Positions 15,948 through 40,750 of a stretch of 41,957 bases of DNA are shown here, piece after piece. The notes beneath the pieces are model-generated. The model was not told where the DNA came from. It saw only the letters and a program-made list of their open reading frames with translations, and did not search any database. Numbering within the stretch: position 1 is the stretch's first letter; each line of letters opens with the position of its first letter. This DNA comes from a virus. The stretch lies in the IMG/VR virus record IMGVR_UViG_3300048028_000431, positions 1 to 41,957 of that record; one strand, 5' to 3'. Both the position numbers and the translations under genes were made by a program.

Positions 15948-18527
15948 TTATTGACCACCTTGCCCCAGCATACTCATGATTTGTTCAGGAGAAGGCGCTG
16001 CTTGTTCTTGAGGCATTTCTTGTTGACTCATAATAGAAGCTTGTTGCTCTTGGCGAACTGGAAAAGGAGGTTGAGGTGCTATACCGCTTATTTGTGGCAT
16101 ATTCCCACCTAATGATTGTAGGTTTGAAACCATATTTTTATTTTCTTTTTCTTCAAAATCCGTAGCAGGAAGATTTTCTTTTCTTTGTTTTATCATCCTA
16201 CTTTGTTGAGTGGCTTGTTTTTCGGTTCTTTTGTCTTTTCTATCTTCTTTGAATTCTTCTCTATTTTTTATGACATCCGATTCAAGCCTCTTTAATTCCA
16301 TATCGAACCCATGCTTTATTTTTAAAAGCTCTGCTTCAACTTGAAGTTTAGCCTGCATTTTTTGTAAATCTAACTCAGCCTTCATTTGGGCCATTTGTTG
16401 TTCAGATTGAAGTTTAAATTGTTCTTCTTGCATTCTAGCTTGAGAAGCTGCTTGTGCAGATTTTGCATTTGCTTGAGATTGTATTTCTGCTACTTTTTGT
16501 TGCTTATCTAAATCTGCAGTTTCTTTTTTGATTTTTCTTAGTTTCAAAAGAGAGTTTGCTAATGTCAAGTCCTTAATAGTTCTAATATCAATAGCATCTT
16601 CAAGACCTATTAATCCAGCTGAAATAGATTGCTGTATGTTTTGTTCAAGTTGTTGCTTTTCTTCTTCATCTGGCTCTATTTCTATATAAATACCAAAATC
16701 GTGTAAATGTAGCATCTGAATATCTGCAATAATTTCAAAATTATTCTTACCAATCATTTTCGCAAAATCATCAGAAAAATCAGAATATTGAAGTATGTCT
16801 GATATTCTATAAGACATAGCTTCTGCAAGTCTTTTTGTAATTTGTATTCCAGATAAAACAACATGTCTTGTGGCTGTATTACTGTTTAAAGCAGCCATTT
16901 TTTGAATACCAACTAAAGCTCTTGAGTCTGGACTACTTCCATCTCTTGCTTCATTTATACCAGTAACGGCTCTTATCATGTTTAATTGGTAATTATACAT
17001 ATTAATAAGACTTGCTATTTTAGCATTTGAGCCACTACTTGTAAGTTCTTGTATTGGAACTCTTGCATTATTAAAATCTCCATCCTCAGTATAACTTCTA
17101 CCTATAACACTACCTGTCTGAAAGTACATTGATAGCGCTTCCGATGGGTTATAAGAAGCTCCATTTCCTAAATCAACACTATTTAAACCATCGGCATCTA
17201 TAAAAACCCCGTCTGGTATCATTTTAGCAACTACTTGTTGTAGTTTTAAATGCGTTAATTGTATTTGGTCGGCAAAAGGTATCATTCTTTTAACTAGAGA
17301 ATCAATATTTCCTTTTGATAGCTTTATAGCTGACACGATGTATGGGGGAATTGTTCTTTGAAATGCAGACTTAGGTCTAACCATATTGTTCATTACATTC
17401 CACTTAAGCAGAGTATTTGTACCTAAAACTAAAACTCCCTCATACCAAACATCGATTCTTCTAGAAACTTTTTTAAATCTTTCTTGTTGTTCTTCTGATG
17501 GGTTAAACTGAGAGTCTTTTTTTATTGCTTTTTGACCACCGTTATCGTTGTCTTTTATTTTGTAAGTAACTTCTTTGTCTGTTTTGTAACAAAAATAAAG
17601 CAAAGAAACATTTGACTTGTCTAAGCCGCTTTGTGTTGTTAGGTTTTGAGTACTTCTGTATCCGTTAAACCTACTTGCCATTTTAGATATTTCTTCAATT
17701 TCTTCTTGTGTAAGTCCAGGATTAATTTTTTTTATTTCAGTAACATGTACTGATTTTACTTCACCATAATAATAACAATTATTGAAGTTAGGGTCATCTG
17801 TAGGAGAGTAGACAAAATTAACTGGGTCTACATACTCCACTCTGACTCCGTTGTGTACATCAAAACAATGCTTTACAGCCGATATACCTAAAACAACATT
17901 ATCCTCATCAATTCTTCTTTTTATTTCATCATAGTTGTTGAGTTCAAATACAGATTTTATAGCAGCTTCTTCTGCAACCTCAACACCTTGTTTGTATTTT
18001 AGTTGCATATATAAATCCAACTCCTCAGAATTTTCTGGTAGTTGTTCTTCTGGATAATTGAAAGCATCAACACCAGTTGTATCCTTGATTTCTTTAAGTA
18101 TTGGTCTAGCAACCATGTCAGCTATAACATCTTGCTTAAAAGTTTCTCTTTCCATAGAGGAAATTGAGTCTATAGCTTCTACTTTTACATCAAGCAACCT
18201 ATTTGATATGCCGTTTACAACAACATCAACAAACTTAGGTATGATAGGTACAGGAGTCCAATCTAAATTAAGATAAGACAAGTCACCATTTATAGCTAAT
18301 TCATTTTTATACTTTTCTACTGGTTGCTCTCCTCTTGCGTAAAGTCTTCTTTTTAGGTATTCAGAGCGTAGTTCTCCATATCTGCTTCCACCATAATCTC
18401 TGGAAAACCATTCTGACTCAATAGCTTGACCAACTCTCAACCCATACTCGTATGAATCTTTTTCTTGGTCTGGAGCAAATTGATTAGGGAAACCGCCACC
18501 TGAACTGAATTTCGGCTTATTTATCAT
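15948..18527 (-). CDS. Portal protein
   Basis: The 859-aa protein lies 2 bases after the large terminase gene. The N-terminal part (residues about 25-120) includes YGLRVGQAIESEWFSRDYGG and WTPVPIIPKFVDVVVNGISN, typical of large portals in crAss-like phages. A central portal core contains DPVNFVYSPTDDPNFNNCYY and MIPDGVFIDADGLNSVDLGN. Residues about 640-760 are a long coiled coil rich in Gln, Ala, Glu and Lys. The C-terminus is Gln/Pro-rich (MSQQEMPQEQAAPSPEQIMS). The length, near 800-860 aa, fits crAss-like portals. The protein would form the dodecameric DNA gate at one capsid vertex. Order terminase, portal, scaffold, capsid supports the call. Confidence 0.9.
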   Translation of the reverse strand: MINKPKFSSGGGFPNQFAPDQEKDSYEYGLRVGQAIESEWFSRDYGGSRYGELRSEYLKRRLYARGEQPVEKYKNELAINGDLSYLNLDWTPVPIIPKFVDVVVNGISNRLLDVKVEAIDSISSMERETFKQDVIADMVARPILKEIKDTTGVDAFNYPEEQLPENSEELDLYMQLKYKQGVEVAEEAAIKSVFELNNYDEIKRRIDEDNVVLGISAVKHCFDVHNGVRVEYVDPVNFVYSPTDDPNFNNCYYYGEVKSVHVTEIKKINPGLTQEEIEEISKMASRFNGYRSTQNLTTQSGLDKSNVSLLYFCYKTDKEVTYKIKDNDNGGQKAIKKDSQFNPSEEQQERFKKVSRRIDVWYEGVLVLGTNTLLKWNVMNNMVRPKSAFQRTIPPYIVSAIKLSKGNIDSLVKRMIPFADQIQLTHLKLQQVVAKMIPDGVFIDADGLNSVDLGNGASYNPSEALSMYFQTGSVIGRSYTEDGDFNNARVPIQELTSSGSNAKIASLINMYNYQLNMIRAVTGINEARDGSSPDSRALVGIQKMAALNSNTATRHVVLSGIQITKRLAEAMSYRISDILQYSDFSDDFAKMIGKNNFEIIADIQMLHLHDFGIYIEIEPDEEEKQQLEQNIQQSISAGLIGLEDAIDIRTIKDLTLANSLLKLRKIKKETADLDKQQKVAEIQSQANAKSAQAASQARMQEEQFKLQSEQQMAQMKAELDLQKMQAKLQVEAELLKIKHGFDMELKRLESDVIKNREEFKEDRKDKRTEKQATQQSRMIKQRKENLPATDFEEKENKNMVSNLQSLGGNMPQISGIAPQPPFPVRQEQQASIMSQQEMPQEQAAPSPEQIMSMLGQGGQ

Positions 18528-18529
18528 AT

Positions 18530-20776
18530 TTATTTAATAATTTCACTAACAAAACCTTTGTTACTGTATTTCGCAAAGTTAAGATTTATTTGATTACGTT
18601 TTTCTTCACCTTTATTTTTAGTTGATTGATTTGCCATTATAGCAAAGCCTGAGCTCACCGTTGCATCAAACCTAGTTCTATTAGTGATATCGTAGTTAGC
18701 CCAATCCAACAAAGTTCTGTTAAAAAACATATTACCACAACTTCCAAAGTCAGCGCTTGCTTCATCTTTTAAAACTCCAACATGTGATTCTATGTAACTT
18801 TCAATGTTCTCTGCATGAACAGAAATCACAGCGCTTGATGAAGGTATCCCGCCAAGTTCTTTTTCTGATTTTGACAAAATATTTCTATGTTTATCTGGTC
18901 TATTTATTGAGAAAGCCCTATAGCCTCTTTCTTTTAAATAATACAAAATTCTTGGCTTGTTGTTTTCCAAAAGGATTGGCATGCCATAAAAATGCAAAGC
19001 CATAAGAACGTCTTCATAAAATATTTCAGCTGTTTGAGGTCTTGAAATATATTCTAAAAAAAACATGTTTGTAGGAGCGTCTTCCATATGAAACTTAGTC
19101 ATTCCATGAACAGAGCCTTTTGAACCACCACCACCTACAACACCTGATATATCATAAGAGTCACCACCAAATGAACCTATATGTTTGTTGCCTGGATATT
19201 TTTTTCCGTTTTTCTCTATAACATTATTTATTAAATCTTTAGAGGGAATCCAAGATAAAAAGAATCTACCTTTGTTTTCAGGTGAAAAAATAACTTCACT
19301 ATCTCTCACTCCTGCTTTCCAATGAAAATTACCTCTTGTGACTGTTGATTTTATAGCAAATGAGTCGTTATAATCTATTTGTTCATATATTCTAGTGAGA
19401 TTGAATAATGTATTTTTAGACTCATCCCTAAATGCATGAGATTCTGTTCTTGGGAATTGTCTATAAAATTCATTCAAGGCATCTGGGTCCTGCTTTAAAC
19501 TATCTACTTCATTTTGCCAATAATCAATAGCTCCTTGTGTTATATAATCTCCATAATTACTTAATAAAGGCTTGTTAGGGGTTTCGAATACAGGAAAACC
19601 ATACTTATCAATAAACCCCTCCATATTCCACTCCATAGGAATAAATAAATTGTACATACCGCTTTTGGTCTGTCCATTTGAATTTCTTGTATTAGGGTCT
19701 GAGTCGTAATATAGTTTTTTAAAGTTTTCACCTCCTTTGTCGAGTGCGTTTGAGGTAGAGCCCATCATACATTTACCTATAATCCTTCTACCTAATCTCA
19801 AACATGTTTTTGTTACCCTCCAATTATTAAGTATATTATCAGGCTTATCCCACTTACCGCTTTCATCATGCACCAGTAGGGCTAATTTTTCCCCATCATA
19901 ACTATTATCTCCTGTGTTTTTCCAATCAATAGTTGTATCTAATCCCTGTAAATCACTTATAGTGCTTGTGTTTGATATAGATTTCCTTGTTAGTTTTGAT
20001 GCTGGAACCCTATATGCAAGTTCGGATTTAGGTCTATCCATACCATCCTGTATGGGTTTGAAGAAAAAGGGATAATTTACAGATATAGGAACAACTTTGT
20101 CTGTAAACATTTTTTTAGCATCTGCACCCGTCTTAGACAGAATACCAAATCTTGAGTCAGACCTTATTGTTGCTTGATTAACTATTTCTGCAGAAGACAT
20201 AAATGAAAAACCAGAACGTCTGTTTTTTAAATAACACATTCCGTAACACCTGATGTCAGCCTTACACGCTTCCCAATATATAAAAAATAACCTATTTGAT
20301 TCTCTGAAATCTGGCTTGCCTACATCAATTTTTGTCCATTGAAGATACATGTAATGTGTGCCTGTAATATATGTGGGTACCCCATTATTCTTAAACCAAA
20401 AGCCATTTTCTCTTCTATCAAACTCTTCTTCTATATAAGGAACCCATTTTTCCTTATATTCTTTATTCATTTCATTCCATTGAAATATAGTTTGAAGTGG
20501 TTTTAATGCTTTAGGATACTCTTTTGCCTCCCAGTACTGTTCCTTTTTTAAATTATTTCTAGAGTATATGTTTTTTGGCTCTTTAGGTAAGCCTATAAAA
20601 ATACCGTTTACATGAATTATATCACCAACGGTTCCGTTTTTTGATATTACAACAATGTTTCTTTTATCATCATAACCATATTTAAAAGACTTAGATTTGT
20701 TTTGTTTCTCTAGGTCTTTTTTATCAACATGTGTAGTTGTTGTTGTATATAAGCTATTTAGACCTTCTTTCTGCAA
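18530..20776 (-). CDS. terL: Terminase large subunit (ATPase and nuclease)
   Basis: The 748-aa packaging motor carries a deviant Walker A at about residues 184-191 (KNRRSGFS, with no classical GKT/S). The Walker B is LALLVHDE at 298-305 with Asp304 and Glu305, and a coupling motif MGSTSN follows. The C-terminal RNase H-like nuclease begins near 535 with GGDSYDISG (Asp539 a likely metal ligand), then LLDWANYD near the end. The (R/K)RxxGFS form of Walker A recurs in Bacteroidota phage terminases. Its start overlaps the 3' end of the small helical gene by 23 bases, and the portal gene follows 2 bases after its stop. The missing Walker lysine seems normal for this group and is not decay. Confidence 0.93.
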   Translation of the reverse strand: MQKEGLNSLYTTTTTHVDKKDLEKQNKSKSFKYGYDDKRNIVVISKNGTVGDIIHVNGIFIGLPKEPKNIYSRNNLKKEQYWEAKEYPKALKPLQTIFQWNEMNKEYKEKWVPYIEEEFDRRENGFWFKNNGVPTYITGTHYMYLQWTKIDVGKPDFRESNRLFFIYWEACKADIRCYGMCYLKNRRSGFSFMSSAEIVNQATIRSDSRFGILSKTGADAKKMFTDKVVPISVNYPFFFKPIQDGMDRPKSELAYRVPASKLTRKSISNTSTISDLQGLDTTIDWKNTGDNSYDGEKLALLVHDESGKWDKPDNILNNWRVTKTCLRLGRRIIGKCMMGSTSNALDKGGENFKKLYYDSDPNTRNSNGQTKSGMYNLFIPMEWNMEGFIDKYGFPVFETPNKPLLSNYGDYITQGAIDYWQNEVDSLKQDPDALNEFYRQFPRTESHAFRDESKNTLFNLTRIYEQIDYNDSFAIKSTVTRGNFHWKAGVRDSEVIFSPENKGRFFLSWIPSKDLINNVIEKNGKKYPGNKHIGSFGGDSYDISGVVGGGGSKGSVHGMTKFHMEDAPTNMFFLEYISRPQTAEIFYEDVLMALHFYGMPILLENNKPRILYYLKERGYRAFSINRPDKHRNILSKSEKELGGIPSSSAVISVHAENIESYIESHVGVLKDEASADFGSCGNMFFNRTLLDWANYDITNRTRFDATVSSGFAIMANQSTKNKGEEKRNQINLNFAKYSNKGFVSEIIK

Positions 20777-27768: not shown

Positions 27769-28233
27769 TTACTTTTTAAATAAGCTTGTTGCTTTTTCTG
27801 TTGTACGTCCTCCAAAATAAGCTAAAACAACAGCCATCATTACCTTTTCGAAAGTGTCATTCCACAAAGCGTTTATTTGAAATGGTATTGTTTCAACACT
27901 ATCTAATATACCAGCCATTGAGAATATAGTTATACACCATATTAAAACCATTGGACGAACATTCTTAGACATCCATGAGTCTGACATAGAATCTGCTTGC
28001 CATCTTGAAGTTATTGATTCTATTTCTTTATTTTGTTGCTCATATATAAGCTGCTGTAGTTTGATTTTATCTTCATTAGAGACATCTGCTTTAGTTATTT
28101 CTGCAATAGCTTCTTTAGGTGAAGTTACCCCCTCTAAAACTTTGCCAAGTGTTGGGTTTATCATCCCCGCAGCTCCCAAAAGCAGTTTTCCCACCGTAGT
28201 GTCTTTGAATTTCTTTTTAGGTTTTGTGCTCAT
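27769..28233 (-). CDS. Holin of the 3-TM / gene-transfer-release type
   Basis: The 154-aa protein has an N-terminal region with a weak hydrophobic stretch (VGKLLLGAAGMINPTLG, about 14-30), then a helical middle with SRWQADSMSDSWMSKNVRP (76-94). That string is typical of the Holin_3TM family. A TM segment at about 93-112 (MVLIWCITIFSMAGIL) and another at about 128-142 (KVMMAVVLAYFGGRTTEK) follow. The YFGGRTxEK ending is also characteristic. It overlaps the peptidoglycan-enzyme gene by 4 bases, the expected partner. Holins of this type form the inner-membrane lesion that lets the lytic enzyme out. Confidence 0.8.
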   Translation of the reverse strand: MSTKPKKKFKDTTVGKLLLGAAGMINPTLGKVLEGVTSPKEAIAEITKADVSNEDKIKLQQLIYEQQNKEIESITSRWQADSMSDSWMSKNVRPMVLIWCITIFSMAGILDSVETIPFQINALWNDTFEKVMMAVVLAYFGGRTTEKATSLFKK

Positions 28234-28835
28234 GATATATCATTTGAATTAATAAGAGTGTAAGTAAATGAGTTTCCCCAAACCTCTTTTGCATTATACA
28301 TTATTGACATAAACTCTTCAAAGTCGTCGCTATTAGCCATGACCTGACATCCAGCAGACCACTTATCAACTCTTGTAGAACTTTTGCCAGCTTTATGAAT
28401 ATTTATTCCAAATATGCCGTTATCTAAGGTTTCTAAATCATAGACCTCATTAAGATTTTTATCTCTGTAAACAGTCATGGGTAATTTTTGTCCAAGTGCA
28501 TTATACTTGCCCTGGTGTTTTCTGATTTTATGTGAGCCAGAATACTGACCTTCTTTTAATATGGCAACACCTTTTTTATTCATAATATTTTCAACCCAAT
28601 ACTTACCTGGGTCAGTTGTTGCTTTGAAGCAGTGAAAACACCACTCATCTTGTTCATCTTTATAAGAAACAGTTATACAGTCATCAAATTTATTAGTCAC
28701 ATTGTCTTCTGTTTCAGAATTTCTAACCCCAACAATATTTACGTTATATTGACCAGACTCAAACCATTTGTGGCCTAATCCCTTAACTGCATCTTTAATT
28801 TGCTTCATAGTAAAGCATACTCCACAACAAGCCAT
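28230..28835 (-). CDS. Putative endolysin / peptidoglycan enzyme with a YkuD-like H...SxGC motif
   Basis: The 201-aa protein has no signal peptide, as expected of a holin-dependent enzyme. Its C-terminal half has FGINIHKAG with His147, then VDKWSAGCQV with Ser160, Gly162 and Cys163. This resembles the H-x(n)-S-x-G-C core of L,D-transpeptidase (YkuD) domains. Other conserved-looking strings are VRN at 37-39, GQYSGSHKIRKHQGKYNALG at 96-115 and FTYTLI at 190-195. From memory this family occurs in phages and bacteria and is often left hypothetical. The 4-base overlap with the holin gene supports lysis. Catalysis could be transpeptidase, carboxypeptidase or endopeptidase; sequence alone cannot decide. 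An ATG at codon 10 is an alternative start. Confidence 0.65.
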   Translation of the reverse strand: MACCGVCFTMKQIKDAVKGLGHKWFESGQYNVNIVGVRNSETEDNVTNKFDDCITVSYKDEQDEWCFHCFKATTDPGKYWVENIMNKKGVAILKEGQYSGSHKIRKHQGKYNALGQKLPMTVYRDKNLNEVYDLETLDNGIFGINIHKAGKSSTRVDKWSAGCQVMANSDDFEEFMSIMYNAKEVWGNSFTYTLINSNDIS

Positions 28836-28845
28836 ATTCTAATTT

Positions 28846-29058
28846 TTATTTTGTTGTTAAAACATGTAAAAGCCAAATCACTGTACTCATTGATAAAAAC
28901 TTCATTAATCCCTTATCAAATTCAGTTACTTTTTTACTGTCTTTTACATTAACTACTTCAAATAAAGTGTCAGGATGAGCTCTGTCCCATGATGGTTTAG
29001 CTGGTGCACAGCTAGACGTTAAAAACAAAACAATTATCAACACTAATACTTTTTTCAA
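28846..29058 (-). CDS. Small lipoprotein with C-terminal hydrophobic segment, spanin candidate
   Basis: The 70-aa protein has a lipoprotein signal (MKKVLVLIIVLFLTSSC) with Cys17 as the likely lipidated residue. A short hydrophilic stretch (18-53) follows, then a hydrophobic segment FLSMSTVIWLLHVL (54-67). A lipid anchor at one end and a hydrophobic helix at the other is the plan of unimolecular spanins, but the link is much shorter than in T1 gp11. It may instead be an outer-membrane spanin partnering the 97-aa coil protein. It overlaps the thioredoxin-like gene by 4 bases and precedes the endolysin by 10. The lipoprotein call is strong; the spanin role is inferred. Confidence 0.65.
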   Translation of the reverse strand: MKKVLVLIIVLFLTSSCAPAKPSWDRAHPDTLFEVVNVKDSKKVTEFDKGLMKFLSMSTVIWLLHVLTTK

Positions 29059-29474
29059 AATCTATTTTCTTTTTTTAAACTATTTATATCTGATTGTATT
29101 TCAGAAAGACTTGAAGGAAATTCTAAATCCAACCCCGCTTTGTAAGACAACTCCTTTATACCATCTTTAAAAACTAAAACAGTTGGAGCCATTCTTATCC
29201 TGTACTTTTTTTTAGCGAGTGGCGCTAAAGCAACATCAACCCTGTGATATGTAACACCTTTTAAACCACTCCACTCTCTAAAACAATTGTCCTGGTTAAA
29301 CTCAGCCCAGAACTCAATAACAACTATGCCTGAGTCAGAATCGTCATATTGGCTATTTTCTTTTATTTTTTCTTCAAAATCTGAATCTGTTATCCAGTAT
29401 TTCTTTGGTACTACCTCATATTGTGTTTGTGCAAAAGAAGAAAAACTTAATAATAATAGTAAATATTTCATCAT
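29055..29474 (-). CDS. Exported thioredoxin-fold protein lacking the CxxC active site
   Basis: The 139-aa protein has a flavobacterial signal peptide (MMKYLLLLLSFSSFAQ, cleavage near 15). The mature part shows a thioredoxin outline: strand VVIEFWAEF (51-59), later HRVDVA (77-82), then RIRMAPTVLVFKDG with the cis-proline Pro97 expected after the central helix. In thioredoxins WCxxC follows the first strand. Here it reads WAEFNQDNC, with one cysteine (Cys64) at a shifted place and no CxxC. Disulfide exchange is therefore unlikely; binding or a single-Cys role is possible. It overlaps both neighbours by 4 bases in the lysis operon and would act in the periplasm. Confidence 0.65.
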   Translation of the reverse strand: MMKYLLLLLSFSSFAQTQYEVVPKKYWITDSDFEEKIKENSQYDDSDSGIVVIEFWAEFNQDNCFREWSGLKGVTYHRVDVALAPLAKKKYRIRMAPTVLVFKDGIKELSYKAGLDLEFPSSLSEIQSDINSLKKENRF

Positions 29475-29764
29475 CTTCCTTTTTGCATCTCATATATTCT
29501 TTCGTCGAGCTTATCTAGTTTTTCTAGAATCATTTCAACATCTTCTTGAGTGTCCATTATTGTTTGACGTATCAACTCATCTTTTAAATCATACTCAACT
29601 CTGTCTATTACAGGTTCAGGCTTTGTCATAGCTTCAGCTATGTCGGCCTGCAATGTATACCACATCCCTGATAAAGTTACAACAAAACCGACTATCATTC
29701 CTATGGTTTTAAAATCTAAGGTTACTTTAGTGTCTTCTGATATTTGAGGTGCTTTTTCGCTCAT
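29471..29764 (-). CDS. Membrane-anchored coiled-coil protein (i-spanin-like topology)
   Basis: The 97-aa protein has a short charged N-terminus, one TM helix (about 20-39, TIGMIVGFVVTLSGMWYTLQ), and a periplasmic-side coiled coil (about 65-97, LIRQTIMDTQEDVEMILEKL and DKLDERIYEMQKGR). This is the topology of an inner-membrane spanin of the Rz type. Similar small membrane coils occur in many phages without known function. It overlaps the outer-membrane-barrel gene by 1 base (TAATG) and the thioredoxin-like gene by 4. The assignment rests on topology and operon only. Confidence 0.65.
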   Translation of the reverse strand: MSEKAPQISEDTKVTLDFKTIGMIVGFVVTLSGMWYTLQADIAEAMTKPEPVIDRVEYDLKDELIRQTIMDTQEDVEMILEKLDKLDERIYEMQKGR

Positions 29765-30924
29765 TACTTAAACATATAATTAATTCCAAATGTTGTTTGG
29801 AAAAGTTTACTATCCCACATTTTTGAGTATTCGCCCTCAGCAAAAACTCCTATATTTCTTCCCAGCTTCCAACCAAAACTTAATCCAGCAGAGTAATCTT
29901 CCCATTGTTCAAGTTTTGCGTCTTCAACCAATCCACCTAACCCCCAGTTATTTCTATTTAAATAAGAAACTGTTTCATCTCCTTTAAGGTATTTATGATG
30001 AGGAAGTATATAATTACCATAAGCATGTAGCCAGAAATTGTTTTTATAATGATAAAAATCAAATCCAATTATAGGAGCAATCTCACCAAAAGAATCAAGT
30101 TGACTCCACATCTCTCTATTATATCTATTCATTAGATTTCTAAAAACTGTTTCCCTAAACTCTAAATCAGAATCAGCAACTCTATTTCCTTGAGAGTCTA
30201 TCCAATACCAATCAGAAGTCTCGTTCCCAAACTCGTCCTCAGATGTGTAGAATATATCGTCATAACCATATTCAAACCCAAGCTCATACCAATAGTTTAC
30301 AGGAAAGCCATCTTCATCTAGTTCGTTTAGCCATATTTCAATTGGGTTATACCCATAAGGGCGTTCATGAGTACGGTAAATAGCACCCATAGATACCGAA
30401 AACTTTTTTCCAATAGGAACTCTAAGTCTTGCTTCAGCTGACATGTAGTTGAGGTTTATTCTACCAACCTCTCTAGATTCTGCTTTTATAATGTGATATT
30501 TTCCTGTGTGCTTTACAAAATATCTATGGTTTTTATATTTGATGCCTCTAAATCTTTCTTCTTCGAAATGGAACTGATATTCAAGTCCTATAACAGCAGA
30601 AGTTGGAGCAGTAAAAGCCAATTGACTTTCTGTTCCATCATAAAAATTCTTTGGTTTTCTTTCATAATCAAACCTTGCGAGTTTTCTTATTCCAAAACCT
30701 ATTCTGTAATCGTAAGGGTATTCTGGTGTATTATCTTCTACAACTGGAACGCTGTAAAGTCCACCGTTGGGATTTGTTCGTACAAAATATAATGGCTCTG
30801 CTTCTTCTATTGAGTTAGAAATATCACCAGCAGCGTATACTGTACTATATTTAAATATTTTATCTAATATCTGTGCATTAAGTGTGGCGCTAAATAAAAG
30901 CACCAACCATAATAATTTTTTCAT
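29764..30924 (-). CDS. Predicted outer-membrane beta-barrel protein carried by the phage
   Basis: The 386-aa protein starts with a signal peptide (MKKLLWLVLLFSATLNAQ, cleavage near 17). The mature part alternates polar and aromatic residues as in amphipathic strands: EARLRVPIGKKFSVSMGAIY, FWLHAYGNYIL, AGLSFGWKLGRNIGVFAEGE. It ends TTFGINYMFK, a strand closing on an aromatic residue as outer-membrane barrels do. Tyr and Trp are abundant. A Gly/Asp/Tyr-rich loop region lies at 200-270. It is unusual cargo for a lytic phage. It is first of the tight lysis operon, 1 base after the 81-aa gene start region. Possible roles are superinfection exclusion, receptor masking or outer-membrane disruption at lysis. 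The barrel prediction was made by eye. Confidence 0.7.
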   Translation of the reverse strand: MKKLLWLVLLFSATLNAQILDKIFKYSTVYAAGDISNSIEEAEPLYFVRTNPNGGLYSVPVVEDNTPEYPYDYRIGFGIRKLARFDYERKPKNFYDGTESQLAFTAPTSAVIGLEYQFHFEEERFRGIKYKNHRYFVKHTGKYHIIKAESREVGRINLNYMSAEARLRVPIGKKFSVSMGAIYRTHERPYGYNPIEIWLNELDEDGFPVNYWYELGFEYGYDDIFYTSEDEFGNETSDWYWIDSQGNRVADSDLEFRETVFRNLMNRYNREMWSQLDSFGEIAPIIGFDFYHYKNNFWLHAYGNYILPHHKYLKGDETVSYLNRNNWGLGGLVEDAKLEQWEDYSAGLSFGWKLGRNIGVFAEGEYSKMWDSKLFQTTFGINYMFK

Positions 30925-30925
30925 T

Positions 30926-31171
30926 TTACTTTTTCTTACCGCCGCCCCTAGCTCTGTTAGCCTTTTGTCTTTCTAATACCAAACGACTACCTTTGTGGGA
31001 GCAATCTAATTTGTCTCCTTTTTTCGATTTCTTGTTTTTTTTATTAAATAGATTGCATTCAACTCTTTTGCGCACTGCTTCTTTTTTCTTTTGAGCTTTT
31101 GCGCTTGACTTCCTATGCTTTATTCTTGCTTTAGGATTGTCTCGGTAATATCTTGCTGTTTTACTTAACAT
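30926..31171 (-). CDS. Small Lys/Arg-rich protein (81 aa)
   Basis: The 81-aa protein is about 40 percent Lys and Arg: MLSKTARYYRDNPKARIKHR, then AQKKKEAVRKRVECN, KKGDKLDCSH and KANRARGGGKKK. The YYRDNPxAR start and the DCSHK(G) and NRARGG end form a pattern I have seen in small proteins of marine phages. Cys and His at 55-56 could bind metal, but there are too few ligands for a finger. It is probably a DNA-associated virion or head protein. It is 1 base from the outer-membrane-barrel gene. Confidence 0.6.
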   Translation of the reverse strand: MLSKTARYYRDNPKARIKHRKSSAKAQKKKEAVRKRVECNLFNKKNKKSKKGDKLDCSHKGSRLVLERQKANRARGGGKKK

Positions 31172-31173
31172 AG

Positions 31174-31326
31174 TTATTTACCGTATGGGAACATTCTGTT
31201 TAGGGTGTCTCTTCTTTCTCCACACCCACAAGGTTTTCCCATTTTCTTAGATATAGTGTCTGCAACCTTTTTTATTCCAGTTGCTTTAGTTAATCTCTCT
31301 ACAGTATCTCCTAGACCCCTATCCAT
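31174..31326 (-). CDS. Tiny Cys-containing protein with CGCGERR...LNRMFPYG ending (50 aa)
   Basis: A 51-codon frame from the ATG at 31326 encodes MDRGLGDTVERLTKATGIKK, then VADTISKKMGKPCGCGERRD, then TLNRMFPYGK. The GDTVxxxTKATGIKK plus CGCxxRRxxLNxxFPY outline recurs, as I recall, in tiny genes of Bacteroidota and marine phages. A CxC pair might bind metal. It lies 2 bases from both neighbours, so it is a real operon member although easily missed by gene finders. Confidence 0.7.
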   Translation of the reverse strand: MDRGLGDTVERLTKATGIKKVADTISKKMGKPCGCGERRDTLNRMFPYGK

Positions 31327-31328
31327 TA

Positions 31329-31421
31329 TTATTTTTTCTTTTTTTTCTTCTTAACTACTTTTTTCTTCTTAGCCATTGGCTTAGATTTCTTTTTACTGTA
31401 TGTTGCGCTTCCGTATGGCAT
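31329..31421 (-). CDS. Micro-protein with poly-lysine tail (30 aa)
   Basis: A 31-codon frame encodes MPYGSATYSKKKSKPMAKKK followed by KVVKKKKKKK; more than half of the residues are Lys. The MPYG start and exact fit between neighbours (2 and 16 bases) support it. The poly-A coding DNA also makes chance frames likely, so confidence is moderate. If real it would be a DNA-binding or charge-neutralizing peptide. Confidence 0.45.
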   Translation of the reverse strand: MPYGSATYSKKKSKPMAKKKKVVKKKKKKK

Positions 31422-31437
31422 AATTATTTTTTTTAAA

Positions 31438-31560
31438 TTATTTTTTCTTTTTTAGTTTTGCTAATTTCTTAAAATCAGCACCTGTTATCTTATCAAAAGG
31501 CGGAGCTAATTTAGCTATTTTCATTTGTTTTGCAGTAAGCTTTTTCTTTTTTGACTTCAT
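31438..31560 (-). CDS. Tiny basic protein, LAPPFDKITGADFKKL family (40 aa)
   Basis: A 41-codon frame from the ATG at 31560 encodes MKSKKKKLTAKQMKIAKLAP, then PFDKITGADFKKLAKLKKKK. The core LAPPxDKITGADFxxL is one I remember from tiny basic genes scattered through marine phage genomes, so I trust it despite its size. A TAnnTTTG match (TAAATTTG, 31565-31572) ends 4 bases before the ATG, which would imply a leaderless transcript or chance. Function unknown. Confidence 0.7.
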   Translation of the reverse strand: MKSKKKKLTAKQMKIAKLAPPFDKITGADFKKLAKLKKKK

Positions 31561-31594
31561 TTTTCAAATTTAATAAAAATCTAAATACCTTTTA

Positions 31595-32050
31595 CTAACA
31601 GTCACAGTTACATCCAGAGCTGTTTCTGGCTATCACACTTGCTCCCTTTTTGTTTTTTCCAGTTAAAAGACTCACAACATCTTTAGCGTTTGATGTCAAT
31701 TTCTTTACATTTAAACTTTGAGCGTTTTTAATAATACTCGCTCCTAAAGGAATTACTTGTCCAAGTGTTGTTTCTTGTATATTCTTTCTTAGTTTATTTA
31801 CCTGTGATGCAGCACCTTGAACATCTTGTATTATTTCTCCAGCTTGAGTTTTACCACCTCTTTGTTGTCGTATTAAACCCCTTGCCTCTTGTCTTATAGA
31901 TTCCTTTTCTTCTCTTGATTGAGCATTCCTTAGATTTTGTCTTCTATTTTTTCTTATATCTCTAATGTTCTGTCTTTTTTGTTTATCGCTCTTAATTTTT
32001 GGCATAAACAAAACGTCGGTGTTTATTATTTTCTTCTTTTCCTTGGCCAT
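31595..32050 (-). CDS. Basic hypothetical protein ending CNCDC (151 aa)
   Basis: The 151-aa protein has a very basic helical first half (KQKRQNIRDIRKNRRQNLRN, about 24-43). The second half is Ala/Gln/Leu-rich (VNKLRKNIQETTLGQVIPLG) and the end is Cys-rich, SSGCNCDC. There is no signal peptide. The three closely spaced cysteines at the very C-terminus could bind metal or form disulfides. It lies 3 bases from the 96-aa gene. Probably a minor virion or DNA-binding protein; unrecognised. Confidence 0.6.
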   Translation of the reverse strand: MAKEKKKIINTDVLFMPKIKSDKQKRQNIRDIRKNRRQNLRNAQSREEKESIRQEARGLIRQQRGGKTQAGEIIQDVQGAASQVNKLRKNIQETTLGQVIPLGASIIKNAQSLNVKKLTSNAKDVVSLLTGKNKKGASVIARNSSGCNCDC

Positions 32051-32053
32051 AAC

Positions 32054-32344
32054 TTAATATTTTCCTCTTTTTGAACTTGGTGAAGACTTTGTAGAGCCGC
32101 CCTTACCAGCCCATAACTTTTTACAAGCCCAATATCTTGCCGTTAATTTATTTGTAGCTGATGAGCATTTATGCCTTGCTTTAAAAGACTTTCTTGCTGC
32201 GGCTGAATAATTATGACCATAGCCTTTTGCTCCAAAATGAATTAGCTTTTCTTTTCCATTAGCACAAGCTTTAACCATTTTCTTTTTTCCTGCTCTGTCG
32301 CTTGCTCTAACAACATTGCATTTCATTTTACTTTTGTCTGCCAT
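32054..32344 (-). CDS. Basic Cys-containing protein, HFGAKGYxHNYS type (96 aa)
   Basis: The start at 32344 is preferred because its ATG overlaps the previous stop (TAATG); it gives 96 aa from MADKSKMKCNVVRASDRAGK. The core KLIHFGAKGYGHNYSAAARK then FKARHKCSSATNKLTARYWA resembles small basic proteins known from marine phages and algal viruses (similar in outline to Pfam families of unknown function found there; recalled, not checked). There are five cysteines. A nucleic-acid-binding structural role is possible. Confidence 0.65.
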   Translation of the reverse strand: MADKSKMKCNVVRASDRAGKKKMVKACANGKEKLIHFGAKGYGHNYSAAARKSFKARHKCSSATNKLTARYWACKKLWAGKGGSTKSSPSSKRGKY

Positions 32345-32904
32345 TACGATATATCTATTATTTGATAAGTAATCCAAATAGTTACTTCTGTAGTTGCGGT
32401 GCCTGTTTCTGTAGGCGCATTTGATGAACTGGTGCTTTTAAATCTAACATCACCTACAATAGGGCCAGGGTCTGTACCTCCAGCCGCAACTATAGGCTTG
32501 TAAACAATATTTGATGTGTTATTTAATGAAGCAGCGGCTATAGGGTAGTTATAAGAGGTGTTGTTAGATATAGCTGGTTCTATTGTTAATGCGTCTGGGA
32601 AATTTAATTTATTTTGAGAAGTTTGATTGCTTGTTTTTATAATAACTGATACAACATCGGCAACTTCATTATCCGTAAGGTCTATTAGAACAACAGGACC
32701 TGTGTGGATTGTTCTTAATTGCGCTGTACTTACTGTTATCTTTTTAGTAACAAAGTTCCCTCCTGAGCCAATAAAAGACCTAAGTGCAGATACAGAAAAG
32801 TTTTTAGTTTTACCCTGGTCTTCTCCTGTTGTTCCGTCTGTGCCAATTACCTTGTCATTTATATCTATACCTGTATCGAGTATATATGTACTAATATTTG
32901 CCAT
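32344..32904 (-). CDS. Fibre-related protein sharing the ISTY N-terminal module (186 aa)
   Basis: The 186-aa protein starts MANISTYILDTGIDINDKVI followed by GTDGTTGEDQGKTKNFSVSA. It matches the beginning of the 233-aa fibre gene (MARISTYAIDTIV...DKWIGTDSNG...KNFTAS). The remainder is beta-rich and ends TEVTIWITYQIIDIS. The shared module is probably a virion-attachment or folding unit. It lies among tiny basic genes, away from the other fibre genes, 1-base overlap on one side and 2 bases on the other. Confidence 0.7.
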   Translation of the reverse strand: MANISTYILDTGIDINDKVIGTDGTTGEDQGKTKNFSVSALRSFIGSGGNFVTKKITVSTAQLRTIHTGPVVLIDLTDNEVADVVSVIIKTSNQTSQNKLNFPDALTIEPAISNNTSYNYPIAAASLNNTSNIVYKPIVAAGGTDPGPIVGDVRFKSTSSSNAPTETGTATTEVTIWITYQIIDIS

Positions 32905-36813: not shown

Positions 36814-38409
36814 TTAATTTTTATTTATTCTCTTGTTTGAGACGACACATGATGTCGTCAGTATTATTGATGCAACTGATGCTGAGTTTAAAACAGCATT
36901 TTTAGTTACTTTAAAGGGGTCAATAATCCCCATTCTTATCATATTTCCAAACTTACCAGTTTTAACATCTAATCCATGTTTGATGGTTCTGTTTTCCATT
37001 TTACTTACAATATACTTGTGTTCTGTTGATTGCCCTGAGTTTTCTATGATTTTTTCCCAGGCACTCGGCAGAGACTCAATTAATATATTATAACCCCAAA
37101 CAAAAGAATCAGAGTTGCTTCTCGGAGATTTTTTGGAAATTTTTCTATGTACGTCTAATAAGGCTACCCCTCCACCAGCAACAATACCTTCTTCTAAGGC
37201 TGCTTTTGTTGCATGGATGGAATCATCTACCCTATCTTTCTTCTCTTTCAGCTCAACTTCTGAGTTACCAGCAAGTTTTATGGTTGCTACACCACCAGCT
37301 AATTTAGATAATCTGTCTTGCAAGTGCCACTTATCGGTTTTATTGGCACTTAATCGTATTTCTTTATTTAACCACTCAATAACCTCATCTTTTTTCTTGT
37401 TTTCCGCCTCATCAAACACCAAAACGGTTTCTGTTGAGTTTGAAATCATCTGTCTACAGGTGCCAAGATAAGATGCATCAATATTTTGAGAAGAATCTCC
37501 TGACATTTCTGAAATCATTCTAGCTCCAGTCATCATACAAAGGTCTTCAAGTAGTTCAAATCTTTTTATACCTATACCTTCAGGTGTTAAAAAGTTAGCC
37601 GTAAGGTTTTTCTTGTTTATATTTTGTGCTATAAACAATTTTACCCTGTCGTCTAGGTCTGAAATGATTAAAAGTGGCTTTTTTTGCTTTATTGAGGCCT
37701 CAAACGCAAAATGAAGTCGTTCGTGCATGTCAATTTTCATGTCACTAATGACAATTAAGGGGTTTTGAAACTCTACTGACTTATTTCTAAGGTTGTTTAT
37801 GCTAAATGGAGTACCATACCCTCTTTGTATTTTGGTTCCATTAGTTATTTCGGTATAATCCTCGCCTGTGGTGGACTCGTCCATTGTTACAACACCATCT
37901 TTACCTACTTTTATATAGGCATCTGCTATCATCTTACCAATATACTCATCTCCGTTAGCCGAAATAGTAGAAACTTGAAGTAATTTTTCGTCTGTCACTT
38001 CAGTTTTCATTTTTTCGAGTGTTTTTACCACCAATCTAGCGGCATGTTCTATACCTTCTTTAGCTTGAGTTACATTTTCAACGCTATTTATTTGGTCAAA
38101 ACACTTATCTATCATGGATTTTGCTAAAACACAGGAAGTTGTAGTACCATCTCCTGCTTCCGACGCTGTTTTTTGTGAAGCTTGCTTTAAAATGCTACAG
38201 CCGAGGTTCTCTACTGGGTCTGAAAGCAATATACTATTAGCTACTGTTACCCCATCTTTTGTAATATGAGGGTTTCCAAACTGGTCTTCAATAATTACTG
38301 TCTTTCCTGAAGCACCTAAAGTAGAGGAAACAGCCTCTGCAAGGGTATCAATGCCTTTTTTTAGTTTTTTCCTGCCATCAGAACCAAAAACTATGTTTTT
38401 TTCAATCAT
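36814..38409 (-). CDS. groEL: Chaperonin GroEL (phage-encoded, lacking the GGM tail)
   Basis: The 531-aa protein shows the full GroEL series. TKDGVTVA has Asp52 and GDGTTT spans 86-91 with Asp87, both ATPase residues. ARVExAL-like DDSIHAT has Asp396 (equivalent to E. coli Asp398), and AGGGVALL follows (GGG at 412-414). The apical domain is much changed: RGYGTPFSINN replaces RGYLSPYFINK, and the GFGDRR site reads EGIGIKRF. The C-terminus ends VVSNKRINKN without Gly-Gly-Met repeats. ATPase residues are intact, so it is probably active; apical changes suggest a narrowed substrate range. It heads the chaperonin operon. Confidence 0.95.
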   Translation of the reverse strand: MIEKNIVFGSDGRKKLKKGIDTLAEAVSSTLGASGKTVIIEDQFGNPHITKDGVTVANSILLSDPVENLGCSILKQASQKTASEAGDGTTTSCVLAKSMIDKCFDQINSVENVTQAKEGIEHAARLVVKTLEKMKTEVTDEKLLQVSTISANGDEYIGKMIADAYIKVGKDGVVTMDESTTGEDYTEITNGTKIQRGYGTPFSINNLRNKSVEFQNPLIVISDMKIDMHERLHFAFEASIKQKKPLLIISDLDDRVKLFIAQNINKKNLTANFLTPEGIGIKRFELLEDLCMMTGARMISEMSGDSSQNIDASYLGTCRQMISNSTETVLVFDEAENKKKDEVIEWLNKEIRLSANKTDKWHLQDRLSKLAGGVATIKLAGNSEVELKEKKDRVDDSIHATKAALEEGIVAGGGVALLDVHRKISKKSPRSNSDSFVWGYNILIESLPSAWEKIIENSGQSTEHKYIVSKMENRTIKHGLDVKTGKFGNMIRMGIIDPFKVTKNAVLNSASVASIILTTSCVVSNKRINKN

Positions 38410-40662: not shown

Positions 40663-40736
40663 GGCGCCTTCGTCTAATTGGTTTAGGACATCATCCTTTC
40701 ACGATGCAAATGTAGGTTCGAATCCTACAGGCGCTA
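40663..40736 (+). tRNA. tRNA-Glu (anticodon UUC)
   Basis: A full cloverleaf can be drawn: acceptor GGCGCCT/AGGCGCT with G1-U72 wobble, D arm GTC/GAC, anticodon loop CTTTCAC with TTC at 40698-40700, and T arm GTAGG-TTCGAAT-CCTAC. The discriminator is A73, and CCA is not encoded (ACAA follows). The top of the anticodon stem (27-43) is a U-C mismatch. The 163 bases between the preceding gene and this tRNA hold no gene that I can support. GAA is a frequent codon in this AT-rich phage, so the tRNA may supplement the host pool. Confidence 0.93.
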
Positions 40737-40750
40737 CAAAATTTATAATT

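Follow-up and report, generated by a model that had tools for sequence, protein, structure and literature searches.

The window analysed here is a virus record of 41,957 bases in IMG/VR (IMGVR_UViG_3300048028_000431, positions 1 to 41,957), and the system in question is a cassette of three envelope genes on its minus strand. These code for a predicted outer-membrane beta-barrel, a small membrane-anchored protein with a charged helical stretch (the coil) and an exported protein with a thioredoxin fold (trx), and they lie in a packed run with genes for a lipoprotein, an endolysin candidate and a holin. The six genes are listed from the barrel to the holin (aa, amino acids):

29764-30924, minus strand: 386-aa predicted outer-membrane beta-barrel, cassette gene 1 (predicted model and structure matches)
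29471-29764, minus strand: 97-aa coil, an N-terminal membrane anchor followed by a charged helical stretch, cassette gene 2
29055-29474, minus strand: trx, 139-aa exported thioredoxin-fold protein without CxxC, cassette gene 3 (model and profile matches)
28846-29058, minus strand: 70-aa lipoprotein with a TTG start, lipobox FLTSSC and a hydrophobic C-terminus, outside the cassette
28230-28835, minus strand: YkuD-like endolysin candidate (PHROG 3000, E 1.1e-38; PHROG 33083 endolysin, E 1.5e-15)
27769-28233, minus strand: holin (PHROG 3427 holin, E 1.5e-16; Pfam GTA_holin_3TM, E 6.5e-4, under its cut-off)

In this order the genes overlap by 1, 4 and 4 bases, are separated once by a gap of 10 bases and overlap again by 4 bases. 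A preliminary description, made from the letters of this DNA, had given the same six minus-strand genes with overlaps of 1-4 bases and a single 10-base gap, and the open reading frame (ORF) coordinates bear it out. The run extends upstream of the barrel, where an 81-aa ORF (30926-31171) stops 1 base before the barrel gene and a 50-aa ORF ends 2 bases before the 81-aa ORF. Promoter-like and terminator-like sites were no more numerous than in shuffles.

Relatives were collected in IMG/VR from three seeds (barrel, trx and coil), to guard against the bias of a single seed, and the resulting sets have contigs in common. A scan with the barrel gave 127 relatives, of which the best 80 loci were used; an alignment search with trx gave 362 (best 80 used, 77 of them new loci) and one with the coil at least 548 (best 80 used, 78 of them new loci). 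Barrel, coil and trx were all present in order in 72 of 80 loci from the barrel seed, 71 of 77 from trx and 76 of 78 from the coil. The 16 exceptions in these 235 locus rows all fall at sequence ends or at a contig break, the break being L062, whose coil and trx lie on its other piece, L128. The 80 barrel loci hold the coil in 74 cases and trx in 72, the lipoprotein, holin and enzyme of the window in 2, 3 and 3. Spacing and neighbouring enzymes were counted in a common set of 135 non-identical loci with barrel and trx, some of which are close kin. The coil precedes trx in every one of these, at a spacing of -4 to +15 bases when the ATG nearest the coil end is taken. Barrel and coil lie -10 to +20 bases apart in 88 loci and 38 to 1572 bases apart, often with a gene between them, in 45, and in two the ORFs as called overlap by more than 10 bases. 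The gene order is barrel-coil-trx in the window, L002 and L003, and coil-trx-barrel in L241, L278 and L297.

Taken together, these results show that barrel, coil and trx form a tightly linked cassette, and that the unit is one of three genes, not of six or four. Chance proximity of the trio was rejected, as the linkage was repeated from three seeds. The preliminary description was thus right in seeing an envelope module beside the lysis genes and wrong about its limits; its single operon extended by four extra envelope proteins falls, since lipoprotein, enzyme and holin recur with the barrel so rarely. A host origin was considered and rejected: a scan of genome_contigs with two peptide patterns gave only five contigs of metagenome-assembled genomes, and the two of them that were read, L239 and L241, have phage surroundings. 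The barrel contigs L237-L241 were binned in metagenome-assembled genomes called Woesearchaeota, Maricaulis and Bacteroidota, and because L239 and L241 look like phage, binning errors are likely for these contigs. An anti-phage defence system was likewise rejected, as the six proteins matched no PADLOC family at E<=0.01.

The 386-aa protein is predicted to be an outer-membrane beta-barrel from the fold of its model and a signal peptide read from the sequence. The AlphaFold2 model was built from 22 sequences and has a mean predicted local distance difference test (pLDDT) score of 69, so that the strand number is approximate. When the model was compared with solved structures by VIA-align, the KdgM porin scored best (Z 14.9, root-mean-square deviation (rmsd) 3.2, 164 aligned), Tsx (Z 14.2) and NanC (Z 13.4) were among the other matches, and autotransporter barrels and OMPLA scored alike. 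The model thus shares the barrel fold of the small outer-membrane porins or channels KdgM, NanC and Tsx, from which the barrel differs in having only 8-10% identity to them, and a pattern scan of genome_contigs showed no host relatives of it. The best viral model found by Foldseek is an unnamed protein (24% identity, E 2.7e-23). Many charged and polar columns of the barrel alignment are invariant, and by mean majority-residue frequency the parts outside the strands are conserved at 0.70 vs 0.76 in the strands. Among the long loops, 187-221 and 307-342 stand at 0.77 by the same measure, 37-71 at 0.64 and 243-278 at 0.67. Phospholipase or omptin activity was rejected: OMPLA and Pla are among the fold matches, but an informal check by eye showed no HxS or paired-Asp pattern.

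The trx model (pLDDT 86) matches its best thioredoxin chain at Z 14.6 with an rmsd of 1.9 over 101 residues, and nearly all of the 50 best structure chains are thioredoxins, their variants or fusions. All 21 members matched PF00085 at E<=0.1, with the protein of the window under the curated cut-off, and NCBIfam gave thioredoxin models only, far under cut-off. Motifs were counted in 137 members: the 135 loci supplied one each, relatives found by their terminase supplied two more, and contig ends truncate a few. The thioredoxin groove is kept without its redox pair, because CxxC occurs in 0 of 137 members while MAPT stands at the cis-proline loop in 119; a single cysteine is present in the whole protein in 109 and none in 8. 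Trx therefore shares the fold and the cis-proline loop of Thioredoxin (PF00085) and differs from it by the missing CxxC and by export, and a role as redox enzyme was rejected for want of that motif. Thioredoxin is named as the processivity factor of T7 DNA polymerase in the title of structure 1t7p. A weak Pfam match to MtmB in 14 of 21 members (best E 2.2e-4) was taken as chance.

The conserved parts of the coil are LKTIGMIVGFVISLAGMWF and PEPVIDRVEYDLKDELIRQTIMDTQEDV, with the strongest conservation soon after the membrane stretch; conserved stretches in the cassette proteins include PEPVIDRVEYDLKDEL and KKKYRVRMAPT. PHROG 1009, a family of unknown function, was matched by 16 of 20 coil members, and L009, L017, L025 and L026 carry second copies of the coil. 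Three Pelagibacter phages and one uncultured phage, all marine, have matches to a second type of coil, and in the stretch examined a cell-wall enzyme is annotated near it in two of the four. In Pelagibacter phage HTVC027P the coil-like protein gp15 (L344, 4983-5405) lies one gene from a peptidase M15. Other small proteins, hydrophobic at the N-terminus and with a charged tail whose last residues are basic, were also seen near lysis genes, with or without the cassette (L292, 5513-5812; L330, 7033-7326; L006, 5061-5345).

The surroundings of the cassette were searched for cell-wall enzymes on the same strand within 5 kb, using our own profiles, each made from a single seed; Pfam supplied the names for the M15, DUF5675 and amidase seeds. 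An enzyme gene was found in 109 of the 135 loci, in all 109 downstream of trx and at a median distance of 349 bases, and in 17 loci it lies within 60 bases of trx. The enzymes are of M15 type in 90 loci, YkuD-like in 10, DUF5675 in 7 (where enzyme function is assumed) and Amidase_2 in 2. Of the 26 loci without an enzyme of these four families, 12 have less than 1 kb of sequence left. In L278 the order is coil-trx-barrel-M15-holin with 4-base overlaps at both barrel-M15 and M15-holin; in L006 a small protein read as holin-like, with no PHROG match, is followed by barrel, coil, trx and amidase; and in L239, outside the 135, an M15 gene stands just before the barrel. A scan for lipobox ORFs from -1.5 to +2.5 kb around the cassette, TTG starts included, could be made in 102 loci with enough sequence. 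No such ORF was present in 74 of these, and the 28 with one compare with a background of 11 on the reverse strand; a further hydrophobic stretch was found in 8, against 3 on the reverse strand. Three clusters of other small proteins, exported or lipid-anchored, also recur near the cassette, in 21, 21 and 17 of the 80 barrel loci respectively (L015, 9762-9989; L077, 5000-5431; L061, 12163-12516).

The large terminase of the window matches 87 public records, the best being MW202828 at 63.5%. The host is likely a member of Bacteroidota, because the terminase groups with those of Flavobacterium (Elemovirus) and Cellulophaga phages, which upholds the host proposed earlier. 'SFAQ'-like signal-peptide ends in the window proteins, a feature typical of such hosts, agree with this. 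A search with the terminase was made, 80 of the loci were used, and 15 relatives were judged to show their lysis locus well enough. The cassette is wholly or partly present in four of the 15 (complete in L278 and L297, a barrel piece and coil in L294, the coil in L258), a weak coil-like ORF stands alone in three, and no cassette was seen at the visible lysis locus in eight (L283, L288, L292, L307, L308, L310, L314 and L330). A coil search through the complete records of 40 of these 80 relatives matched only seven (L278, L297, L294, L258, L296, L302 and L312), and L305 and L315, whose locus lies at the edge and which are outside the 15, gave no coil match. Scattering, or absence from close relatives, had been named as the finding that would speak against a functional unit: the trio was not found scattered, whereas the whole cassette is absent from 8 of the 15, and it is therefore an accessory module rather than part of the lysis core.

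The cassette, or at least the barrel, has moved between phage lineages, because barrel and terminase identities disagree and the corresponding clades are rejected in the barrel tree. The barrel of the window is 73% identical to that of L005, while the terminases of the two are 21% identical; conversely, terminases 65-73% identical to that of the window occur in L241, L278, L294 and L297, whose barrels (that of L294 partial) share 52-61% identity with the barrel of the window. L004, with 74% for the barrel and 75% for a terminase piece over 415 residues, could equally be explained by plain descent. The terminase tree unites the window, L003, L241, L258, L278, L294 and L297 in one set with a support of 97. 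A single clade of the six barrel-bearing members of this set is rejected in a tree of 28 barrels (approximately unbiased test, p-AU 7.7e-91), as is one of the far lineage of L005, L189, L192, L230 and L232 (p-AU 2.6e-88). Both trees were quick ones, the groups were chosen after the identities had been seen, and the evidence for transfer comes from the barrel only.

Beside the cassette the window has an ordinary lysis set, made up of the holin, the YkuD-like endolysin candidate and the 70-aa lipoprotein. The latter is a candidate minimal unimolecular spanin (u-spanin), with a lipobox and a C-terminal hydrophobic segment in one chain: by a simple pattern and scale, the hydropathy of its last 15 residues is 1.71 and about 35 residues separate lipobox and hydrophobic C-terminus, and its match to the Rz-like spanin family PHROG 8971 reaches only E 0.019 over residues 1-37. 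Lipobox and hydrophobic C-terminus are shared with the unimolecular spanins of the T1 gp11 type, from which it differs by the short distance between its anchors; no chain of the cassette has both a lipobox and a C-terminal membrane segment. The enzyme matched no Pfam family at E<=1, and its YkuD label rests on an H-x15-C (SAGC) motif read by eye, the motif of YkuD enzymes. It has relatives in 26 phage records, many of them crAss-like or of Bacteroides. The labels first given to these genes held for the holin, barrel and trx and for the lipobox of the lipoprotein; for the enzyme, PHROG supports endolysin, while YkuD was seen by eye only.

Regarding function, it is quite possible, if somewhat short of an even chance, that the cassette acts on the outer membrane during lysis, using a barrel where a spanin would have a lipoprotein. 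We favour this because exchangeable cell-wall enzymes adjoin it, its parts are assigned to three envelope layers and 74 of 102 loci have no lipobox ORF nearby. It is a role that we infer, set beside the linkage, predicted folds, export and membrane signals, place and mobility that were found. In such a scheme a trans-envelope module of barrel, coil and inactive thioredoxin, set into the lysis region, would act late in infection. The coil would be anchored in the inner membrane and extend its C-terminal helix into the periplasm, and the barrel would sit in the outer membrane; trx, without redox cysteines but with its cis-proline loop, might link coil and barrel as an adaptor that binds peptides in the periplasm. 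After removal of the wall by the endolysin, this complex could destabilise the outer membrane and thereby do the job of a spanin, an outer-membrane protein replacing the lipoprotein. More tentatively still, the trio may be the first spanin-like machine with an integral beta-barrel as its outer-membrane part, spreading between marine phage lineages beside at least four kinds of cell-wall enzyme.

Like the two-component spanins of the lambda Rz/Rz1 type, the cassette has a place near holin and endolysin, a protein that may be an inner-membrane one with an N-terminal anchor and a charged helical tail, and a predicted outer-membrane partner; it differs in that this partner would be an integral barrel without lipobox and that a periplasmic thioredoxin fold is added. 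Barrel, coil and trx matched no PHROG spanin family at E<=1, and no lipobox cysteine was found in the signal peptides of aligned barrel and trx members. As barrel and trx thus lack the lipobox of an outer-membrane spanin (o-spanin), the cassette was not filed as a spanin. Phage B40-8 is presumably a phage of Bacteroides. Kongari et al. (PMC6139136) mention a two-component spanin in B40-8, list Bacteroides and Croceibacter phages among those without spanins, and raise an outer-membrane protein acting as o-spanin as a possibility; a recent survey (PMC12596118) reports unimolecular spanins as the only type in Bacteroidetes phages. The spanin of B40-8 and the 'only unimolecular' statement sit ill together.

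Several observations weigh against a lysis role. Of the 123 loci that have 1 kb or more left downstream, 14 show no enzyme of the four families within 5 kb. Seven of these 14 were read: in six (L005, L192, L198, L220, L230 and L235) the cassette is flanked on one side by a giant gene and on the other by opposite-strand genes read as NrdAB, and the seventh, L022, has a different layout. In L165 the M15 gene is about 24 kb from the cassette. In the window itself a u-spanin candidate adjoins the cassette, and a lipobox protein near the lysis genes was found in none of the 8 cassette-less relatives and in none of L278, L297 and L294. Exchange of a spanin for the cassette was thus not seen, as the cassette-less relatives are without spanin candidates too. 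The single N-terminal hydrophobic stretch of the coil is weak as an anchor (mean hydropathy 1.57), its helical periodicity is not significant (p 0.08), and coil-like proteins form a wider family that also occurs without barrel and trx. Nor is co-variation tighter inside the trio than with neighbours: pairwise identities in a common set (n=59) gave Spearman coefficients of 0.52, 0.42 and 0.41, vs 0.51 for barrel and M15.

The main rival, which we judge unlikely but likelier than the other rivals, is superinfection exclusion or surface remodelling, where the barrel would alter or occupy the host surface against adsorption or injection and coil and trx would anchor or assemble it. The cassette is accessory and mobile, as its absence from 8 of 15 terminase relatives and its movement between lineages suggest, an outer-membrane barrel is a natural surface factor, and accessory surface genes often lie near lysis genes, as do bor and lom of lambda. 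However, the parts outside the strands, whichever of them face outward, are nearly as conserved as the strands, unlike what an arms race would leave; and known exclusion proteins mostly act alone and would not need periplasmic and inner-membrane partners. The preliminary description had offered both outer-membrane opening and superinfection blocking; the position of the cassette favours opening. It is rather improbable that the barrel is a channel through which nutrients or nucleosides enter the infected cell. Its closest folds include small substrate porins and channels (KdgM, Tsx and NanC), many charged and polar columns are invariant and genes read as NrdAB lie near the cassette in many loci; but fold alone shows no function, autotransporter barrels and OMPLA score alike, and the linked coil, the inactive thioredoxin and the neighbouring cell-wall enzymes would be left unexplained.

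Slightly more improbable again is a passenger set, a late-region cargo held together by linkage alone and without joint function. Coil-like proteins occur without barrel and trx, both in Pelagibacter phages and as the weak ORFs of L296, L302 and L312 (E 2e-9 to 6e-12), and distances inside the trio correlate no better than with neighbours; against this, the 16 exceptions in 235 rows fall at sequence ends or a break, and the trio stays together in permuted order (L241, L278 and L297) and after transfer between lineages. That all six genes make up one dedicated lysis operon is very improbable: the tight packing with 4-base overlaps in the window speaks for it, but it is contradicted by the 80 barrel loci, of which only 2, 3 and 3 hold lipoprotein, enzyme and holin, and M15, amidase or DUF5675 genes replace the enzyme elsewhere.

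The cassette is a real, mobile three-gene envelope module, undescribed within these searches, which agrees with its earlier proposal as an undescribed system. No description of the trio was found in the open-access literature searched, and a search of 50,697 public phage records, HTVC027P included, with barrel and coil (two queries each) and with trx gave nothing below E 0.1, the best for trx being a Staphylococcus phage at E 0.8; the related second type of coil does match four of these records. The weak coil-like ORF of L296 matched no public phage record at E<=0.01. The cassette is nevertheless common in uncultured viruses, IMG/VR having 362 relatives of trx and at least 548 of the coil; its carriers are uncultured marine phages, probably of Bacteroidota. 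PMC6139136 treats as an open question the way in which phages that lack recognisable spanins get through the outer membrane, and the cassette gives three defined, co-inherited genes for studying it. If the lysis role is true, this would be a common, unstudied release route of marine phages; if superinfection blocking is true, it would be a multi-part exclusion system, unlike the known single-protein ones.

In the cassette-less relatives MW202828 (L242, 35390-36013) and Elemovirus (L243, gp32, 18171-18716), lysis genes or TerL have near them a small protein that is membrane-anchored at the N-terminus and looks beta-rich, by eye, towards the C-terminus. The MW202828 protein has 7 relatives in IMG/VR and no PHROG match at E<=0.1. 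Like the cassette, these proteins might possibly bridge inner and outer membrane; they differ in that each would do so as a single small chain, and the cassette profiles match nothing in the searched stretches of both genomes. Upstream of the barrel, 30926-32377 of the window holds small, very basic ORFs of 81, 50, 40, 151 and 107 aa, the last of which matches PHROG 220 (minor head protein and DNA pilot) and is also present in MW202828 and Elemovirus. The window further carries a tRNA-Glu (ttc) at 40663-40737 on the plus strand and a phage GroEL at 36814-38409 (PHROG 5725, E 1.6e-132), and GroEL and GroES are annotated in MW202828 and Elemovirus too.

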